Virus record (IMG/VR): IMGVR_UViG_3300042456_000571
Coordinates: 1 to 35,556 of that record
DNA from: a virus
Direction: 5' to 3' (one strand)
Length of the DNA stretch: 35,556 bases
Of the stretch, positions 7,802 to 8,205 are shown in pieces. The first letter of the stretch is position 1, and the number at the start of each line of letters is the position of its first letter. A model generated the notes under the pieces. It was not told the DNA's origin. It saw only the letters and a list, made by a program, of their open reading frames with translations, and made no database searches. The translations under genes and the position numbers were made by a program.

Positions 7802-7829
7802 ATAAAAAAGCCTCTTGTTACAGAGGCTT
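7802..7829 (-). terminator. Intrinsic terminator of the tmRNA gene
   Basis: Read leftward, the 8-bp stem AAGCCTCT / AGAGGCTT with a 6-base loop is followed by TTTTTATT. It starts five bases past the encoded tmRNA 3' end, in the classic position for a terminator. Confidence 0.85.
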
Positions 7830-7833
7830 ATTG

Positions 7834-8154
7834 TGGAGGTGAGGAGAGTCGAACTCCTGTCCAAACTACGTTCATTAATACAATTTATACAGCTTAAAGG
7901 GTCAAGCTAGGCTTGAGCGATTCCACCACTCTATTTAATCTAATAGAGAAATCTTTGAATGTTTAGGCTGCTACAGCAACTTCTTCTCTTAATAAAGAGA
8001 ATACTTTGTTCATGTTAGCTTCGATTTGTGCGTTGTCTCCTAGAGATACTACACGAGTAATAGATTTGCCATTTAATTAATTCACCTTAGTTTACAGTTA
8101 TCTCTCTGGCTGATTGTATTAATTATTGGTAACCTGTCAAAACCAGTCACCCCC
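7834..8154 (-). ncRNA. ssrA: tmRNA (transfer-messenger RNA), phage-encoded
   Basis: tmRNA rescues ribosomes stalled on broken mRNA and, with SmpB, tags the unfinished protein for proteolysis. The 5' end (8154) reads GGGGGTGACTGGTTTTGACA and the 3' end holds a T-arm GGAGTTCGACTCTCC followed by TCACCTCC and discriminator A. GGGGGUGA pairs with UCACCUCC over 8 bp (one G-U) as the acceptor stem. An 11-bp perfect helix P2 joins 8113-8123 to 7874-7884. The CCA end is not encoded (ACAA follows), so it must be added. The tag frame (8040-7963) opens with GGA and encodes 25 residues, GDNAQIEANM... ending EEVAVAA, then TAA; Gly-Glu/Asp-Asn openings and Ala-Ala ends are typical of Bacteroidota tags, but most are 8-15 residues. 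A 7-bp hairpin (TTCTCTT / AAGAGAA) lies inside the tag frame. Mature length is about 321 bases. Confidence 0.95.
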
Positions 8155-8159
8155 ATAAA

Positions 8160-8188
8160 AATCCCTGCAAATATAATTCACAGGGATT
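8160..8188 (-). terminator. Intrinsic terminator of the 110-aa gene, overlapping tmRNA promoter
   Basis: Read leftward, a perfect 8-bp stem AATCCCTG / CAGGGATT with a 13-base loop is followed by TTTAT. It begins 18 bases past the stop of the gene ending at 8206. The loop contains the -7 box of the tmRNA promoter. Confidence 0.75.
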
Positions 8189-8198
8189 AATAAAACAA
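8168..8198 (-). promoter_or_regulatory. Bacteroidota-type promoter of the tmRNA
   Basis: Read leftward, TTG (8198-8196) and TATATTTG (8175-8168) are separated by 20 bases, matching the Bacteroidota consensus TTG-N19/20-TANNTTTG. Initiation would fall about 8-10 bases before the mature tmRNA 5' end at 8154, leaving a short leader for RNase P to remove. Confidence 0.75.
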
Positions 8199-8205
8199 AC
8201 CAAAC

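Follow-up and report, generated by a model that had tools for sequence, protein, structure and literature searches.

The tmRNA (ssrA) gene in the window, the whole 35,556-base IMG/VR record analysed here, encodes a long tag, and sequence comparison indicates that this long tag is the hallmark of a phage tmRNA lineage and not a peculiarity of one phage. We consider it rather probable that the gene yields a working phage tmRNA, which would carry out ordinary trans-translation with host SmpB and attach a two-part tag. Phage tmRNAs as such are known; as far as we have searched, the conserved, long, phage-specific tag and the RNA architecture are new.

ARAGORN called one tmRNA gene in the window, on the minus strand (7833-8154), and the only above-threshold Rfam match in the window lies at this site: RF00023 at 7831-8154 (-), scoring 81.7 bits (gathering score 47; E 2.1e-30), with model positions 1-374 matched end to end. 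The original prediction of a full tmRNA gene at 7834-8154 proved right to the base, 7834 being the discriminator A; the strand, which it had left unstated, is minus, and the covariance search that it had proposed as a check gave this match above the cut-off. The acceptor stem, T-arm, 11-bp P2 helix, tag frame and terminator that it had listed are all present in the sequence and its fold. The gene is complete and of the one-piece type; a two-piece (permuted) tmRNA is ruled out, the whole RF00023 model being matched in order and in one piece. CCA is not encoded. The features of the gene and its flanks, from 5' to 3', are as follows.

8168 to 8199, minus strand: candidate promoter, TTTG-N20-TATATTTG (pattern match; ends 13 bases before the gene)
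7834 to 8154, minus strand: tmRNA (ssrA) gene, 5' end at 8154 and discriminator A at 7834 (ARAGORN and RF00023)
8148 to 8154, minus strand: 5' arm of the acceptor stem, GGGGGTG, with the G3 of the G3-U70 alanine identity pair (G3-U70 in phage copies)
8109 to 8123, minus strand: 5' arm of P2, ATTAATACAAT, and CAGC (covarying pairs in relatives)
8081 to 8108, minus strand: phage-specific segment at the PK1 position, CAGAGAGATAACTGTAAACTAAGGTGAA (alignment of phage and host tmRNAs)
7963 to 8037, minus strand: tag frame, DNAQIEANMNKVFSLLREEVAVAA, and stop (ARAGORN coding part 118-192; core conservation; pN/pS)
7984 to 8001, minus strand: hairpin TTCTCTT-TATT-AAGAGAA within the tag frame (fold -8.3 kcal/mol, z -2.1)
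7922 to 7953, minus strand: hairpin module GATTTCTCTATTAGATTAAATAGAGTGGTGGA after the tag, at the position of the hosts' PK2-PK4 (near-identical in other phage tmRNAs)
7874 to 7893, minus strand: 3' side of P2, with GCTG, linker TATAA and arm ATTGTATTAAT (covarying pairs in relatives)
7834 to 7859, minus strand: T-arm AGGAG-TTCGACT-CTCCT, 3' arm of the acceptor stem CACCTCC, and discriminator A (sequence; pairs in relatives)
7808 to 7829, minus strand: intrinsic terminator after the gene (scan and fold; T-run on to about 7799)

The acceptor stem reads GGGGGUG/CACCUCC, G3-U70 included, and P2 pairs 8123-8113 with 7884-7874. Folding the whole tmRNA as a single sequence gave no useful signal (z -1.1). 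For PK1-PK4, alignment shows the phage-specific segment at the PK1 place and a region after the tag that is unlike that of the hosts. The terminator begins 5 bases past the discriminator base, and its hairpin and T-run (7829-7808) fold with a z of -4.9. Upstream of the gene, TTTG-N20-TATATTTG is a suggestive candidate for the tmRNA promoter. The pattern that it matches, TTTG-N20-TAnnTTTG, which we take to be the Bacteroidota promoter type, recurs ahead of the gene in the window's clade, in four distinct sequences. We call it suggestive because about one chance match per window is expected (three matches were found, against 1.1 by chance). A promoter common to all relatives was rejected, since only four of 32 upstream sequences have the pattern. 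A very stable hairpin with a T-run (8188-8155, minus strand; fold z -5.6) abuts the 5' end of the tmRNA and shares bases with the candidate promoter; it may end an upstream transcript, with the tmRNA start lying within the hairpin.

As called by ARAGORN, which starts at Asp, the tag of the window has 24 residues; it has the 25 originally predicted when the preceding Gly is counted, whose codon GGA lies at 8040-8038 if the frame begins one codon earlier. The resume codon may be that of Gly, of Asp or of the A-N-M motif, which would give 25, 24 or 18 residues. ARAGORN starts the tags of three relatives at A-N-M, and resumption there would leave part of the core untranslated and a tag of 18 residues, still about twice host length. 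For comparison, 296 Bacteroidota genomes and three more gave 93 tmRNAs, 90 of them with ARAGORN calls, and nearly all of these 90 have tags of 8-12 residues. The window tag is two to four times as long as these sampled tags. The predicted excess in length thus stood, but the GENNYALAA type against which it had been set does not stand for the sampled bacteria as a whole: tag types in the sample include GEYNYALAA, DNNYSYRLAA and ANDYSYAMAA, the latter two being as common.

At the PK1 place, phage tmRNAs share the segment CAGAGAGATAACTG..AAACTAAGGTGAA (alignment of phage and host tmRNAs), which occurs in at least 119 viral stretches and in none of 395 Bacteroidota genomes. When sequences were picked by this RNA segment, which lies outside the tag, and the tag was ignored, 93 of the 94 distinct ones had the tag core Q-(I/V)-x-A-N-M (92 by the pattern Q-x-x-x-N-M and one, L353, by eye). 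Stretch L310 has the phage PK1 segment and no core; a different, apparently longer open frame there ends in GTRQVAIAA. The tags of the lineage are 24-40 residues long and have three parts, a core, a variable linker and an end. Among 66 distinct peptides, 61 close with Ala-Ala and five with another kind of end (AMVA, QLVA, AVGV). The degenerate pattern for the tag start NAQIEANM was found in 54 stretches of IMG/VR, all of which encode a tag-like peptide between the same flanking sequences, and gave 12 matches in 84,980 species genomes, none of them in a tmRNA. In a tree, a branch with support of 100/97 sets the 36 phage sequences together apart from the hosts; given that it was built on only 110 columns and that the phage sequences are A+T-rich, we take it as agreeing evidence only.

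Tag searches of public phage records gave matches only in Flavobacterium and Cellulophaga phages, and the isolated phages that carry a tmRNA of this lineage infect these genera. The Flavobacterium psychrophilum phages FpV4, Fpv1-3, Fpv20 and FPSV (Fipvunavirus) have an unannotated tmRNA, 76% identical over the first 198 bases, in a gene of about 412 bases that is extended in the part following the tag; the FpV4 tag is DNAQVEANMNMAFSLIREDVAVAA. The Cellulophaga phages Calle, phi38:1 and phi40:1 (Pervagoviridae) and phi14:2 (Crassvirales, Steigviridae) have the same PK1 segment and core as the window. The tag of phi38:1 and Calle is VNAQIEANMEAVNAILNLEVAVGV, the Callevirus tag ending in AVGV; that of phi14:2 is much longer, ends in LAMVA and has a frame that reads DNTQLKANMTVVHNILNGSDALIGSSVQKLAMVA, where ARAGORN gives only GSSVQKLAMVA (L005 2501-2970). 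The RNA predicted for phi38:1 measures about 359 bases and that for phi14:2 about 469. The Calle tmRNA has been annotated and counted (PMC8776804), and among the annotated phage records listed only those of Calle have the gene annotated, the records of phi38:1, phi40:1 and phi14:2 being without it. ARAGORN truncated the tag in L040 and L170, as in phi14:2, and passed over some intact copies (L095 and L015 among them), so that automatic annotation under-reports the lineage; 12 of 13 missed stretches that we tested are tmRNAs by Rfam, and the thirteenth (L098) is split by an intron. Group I introns apparently split phage tmRNA genes near the T-loop in L098 (2766-2989, minus strand), L347 (near 1441-1464) and L006 (4099-4368), judging from Rfam RF00028 matches in L098 and the gut crAss-like phage cr128_1 and from the same intron start, seen by eye, in L347; such copies are hidden from Rfam-type searches.

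tmRNAs have been reported in ten phages (PMC4131195) and in 402 of 18,146 phage genomes, or about 2% (PMC9004378), and it was proposed that they maintain host machinery or degrade host proteins (PMC9004378). We found no description of this tag or tmRNA lineage in the open-access literature that we searched. The phage RNA shares with the bacterial one-piece tmRNA of the Bacteroidota type the acceptor stem and T-arm, G3-U70, P2, the tag frame with its stop and the Ala-Ala end, but its tag has 24-40 residues and not 8-12, its core is absent from host tags, PK1 is replaced by CAGAGAGATAACTG..AAACTAAGGTGAA, and the later portion of the molecule likewise differs from its host counterpart. Mycobacteriophages Bxz1, Wildcat and DS6A, Bacillus phage G and the marine phage Melnitz are alike in that their RNAs are of the phage-encoded tmRNA kind (PMC4131195, PMC9004378). 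Unlike that of the window, the Melnitz tmRNA is two-piece and riboswitch-linked, and the tag-less RNA described from DS6A (PMC11915505) consists of the tRNA-like domain only; the window gene is not of this DS6A type, a tag frame being present and conserved. The apparent tmRNA of cr128_1 has the module GATTTCTCTATTAGATTAAATAGAGTGGTGGA after the tag in common with the window, a short tag, GNTYRAAA by eye, and a group I intron ahead of the 3' end of the gene. This module was seen at window 7953-7922 (minus strand), L006 4001-4056, L367 606-637 and L371 6683-6706, and it is near-unchanged within several phage tmRNAs. In Lactococcus phages it is found not within the tmRNA but in the stretch that separates a tRNA-Arg from the tmRNA gene, where no Rfam family matches, and it may be a mobile RNA module.

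The assignment of the window to a crAss-like phage was borne out: its TerL is about 25-31% identical to those of Crassvirales and the Cellulophaga phages phi4:1 and phi17:2, a late gene at 34340-35068 matches Pfam CrAss_Ring_2, and matches to PHROG head-and-packaging families were obtained for TerL, portal and head proteins. Among named phages, Leptolyngbya phage Lbo-JY46 (L271, PP438436.1) has the nearest TerL, at 39.6% identity, and it also gave the sole head-protein match; this phage, recorded on a cyanobacterium, carries numerous tRNA genes, and no tmRNA in it exceeds the cut-off. Searching IMG/VR with TerL gave 483 relatives, and since a number of them are on contigs of 110-119 kb, the window is probably a fragment of a larger genome. 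The tmRNA of ten relatives is placed like that of the window, on the same side of TerL at a distance of 5-12 kb and on the other strand. A search of 30 related phage records gave some tmRNA match in 21 and a match over the cut-off in 18; some related genomes are without the gene, which is thus not essential to the group. As a trait of all crAss-like phages the tmRNA was rejected, eight other crAss-like or related phages having none over the cut-off.

The RNA helices are under selection in relatives. In 22 diverse sequences from relatives, 98.7% of the pairs in the acceptor, P2 and T stems are standard, 16 of 24 pairs are changed on both sides, and sliding the partner strand leaves 37-47% paired; the count excludes three sequences whose P2 linker is longer, and the acceptor and T stems were partly picked by pairing. 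The register of P2 was anchored on CAGC/GCTG without use of pairing, and in these alignments P2 covaries. The helices that the original prediction had expected to find in related phages are therefore kept. Every one of the 80 full-length phage copies has G3-U70, with the neighbouring acceptor pairs varying by compensatory changes.

If the phage makes a working tmRNA, as we suspect, host alanyl-tRNA synthetase would charge it, and host SmpB and EF-Tu would bring it to ribosomes stalled on broken mRNAs, which are likely frequent in infection. We found no SmpB in the 30 related phage records, so the tagging step would depend on the SmpB of the host. The phage tag would be added to the stalled protein, and the ribosome would go back to the pool. 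The Ala-Ala end of ssrA tags is read by proteases such as ClpXP, and the hydrophobic-Ala-Ala end of the phage tag would let such a host protease remove the product. The tag may owe its length to a frame that passes through a structured region of the RNA ahead of the stop. More speculatively, Q-(I/V)-x-A-N-M-x-x-V, which is absent from host tags, could serve a phage or host factor as a recognition handle. The phage tag may redirect rescue or degradation, as had been suggested from the window sequence. Only tentatively do we go further, to a separate Bacteroidota-phage tmRNA lineage in which this segment would steer proteins from stalled ribosomes to a phage-controlled fate, via a phage-encoded or captured host adaptor, and not to the default disposal of the host.

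It is fairly unlikely, in our judgement, that trans-translation works but the long tag is without peptide function, an RNA helix and inserted hairpin having grown in frame so that the conservation is that of RNA structure. The 66 distinct tags do fold more stably than their synonymous recodings (in the median, 6.7% of recodings are as stable, and 45% of tags fall under 5%). The A-N codons are able to pair with the tag end, and the weak covariation there (6 of 300 shuffles as high) is suggestive only; within the window's own clade, there is hardly any nucleotide variation in the first part of the tag. In the wider set, however, the amino acids of the core are kept while synonymous sites vary. 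Over 67 distinct core sequences, pS is 0.67 and pN 0.27 (pN/pS 0.40); V is kept in 66 of 67 with three codons, the two L/I positions are kept through many codons, N is encoded by AAC in 37 and AAT in 30, and A has four codons. Because sequences entered this set through a Q..AN(M/L) filter, the four positions concerned look more invariant than they otherwise would, and the 93 of 94 given above is the less biased figure. Even between tag classes whose paired regions differ, hydrophobic positions are kept. By these codon patterns the tag core is under purifying selection, and RNA structure may add to the conservation of the tag.

The hairpin predicted within the tag is present (8001-7995 with 7990-7984), only five of 200 shuffles of the stretch folding as well, and relatives have a hairpin at that tag position, in some of them with the register shifted. 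As a strong RNA element of the window tag it was rejected, 14% of synonymous recodings being as stable. A strong amphipathic helix in the core was also sought, and the signal is weak (in the median, 15% of shuffles are as high).

That the tag protects or relocates proteins rather than marking them for degradation seems to us improbable. Such a role would suit a conserved segment unlike every sampled host tag and the five of 66 peptides that are without an Ala-Ala end, but the other 61 keep the end that proteases read. We think it very unlikely that the RNA is a decoy, occupying host SmpB and blocking trans-translation in the host, in the manner of the DS6A RNA with its tRNA-like domain only. 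A DS6A-like RNA expressed in E. coli does inhibit tmRNA (PMC4131195, PMC11915505), and the 30 related records gave no SmpB. A tag would be superfluous in a decoy, yet selection acts on the tag frame with its stop and Ala-Ala end, and on the alanine identity pair; competition with the host tmRNA for SmpB, which the original prediction had offered as an alternative, may occur but leaves the selected reading frame unexplained. Hardly credible is a remnant or copy of host ssrA retained as an integration site: tmRNA genes commonly serve phages in this way (discussed in PMC11590407 and PMC9004378), but no tyrosine integrase (PF00589) was found in 22 related records in a search that detected its control, the gene is full length and phage-specific with a signature in none of the 395 Bacteroidota genomes, its tag start is in no cellular tmRNA of the 84,980 species genomes, and a single branch of the tree separates phage from host sequences (100/97; few columns). 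An attachment-site copy was rejected on the lack of an integrase and the phage-specific sequence.

We found no demonstrated reason for phages to carry a tmRNA. The conservation of this tag across several phage groups, unlike the sampled host tags, suggests that the phage gains from what is attached and not only from the release of ribosomes. Cultured phages with the same RNA, namely Flavobacterium psychrophilum FpV4 and Cellulophaga baltica phi38:1 and phi14:2, make the question testable, and the phage tag would provide a unique mass-spectrometry signature.
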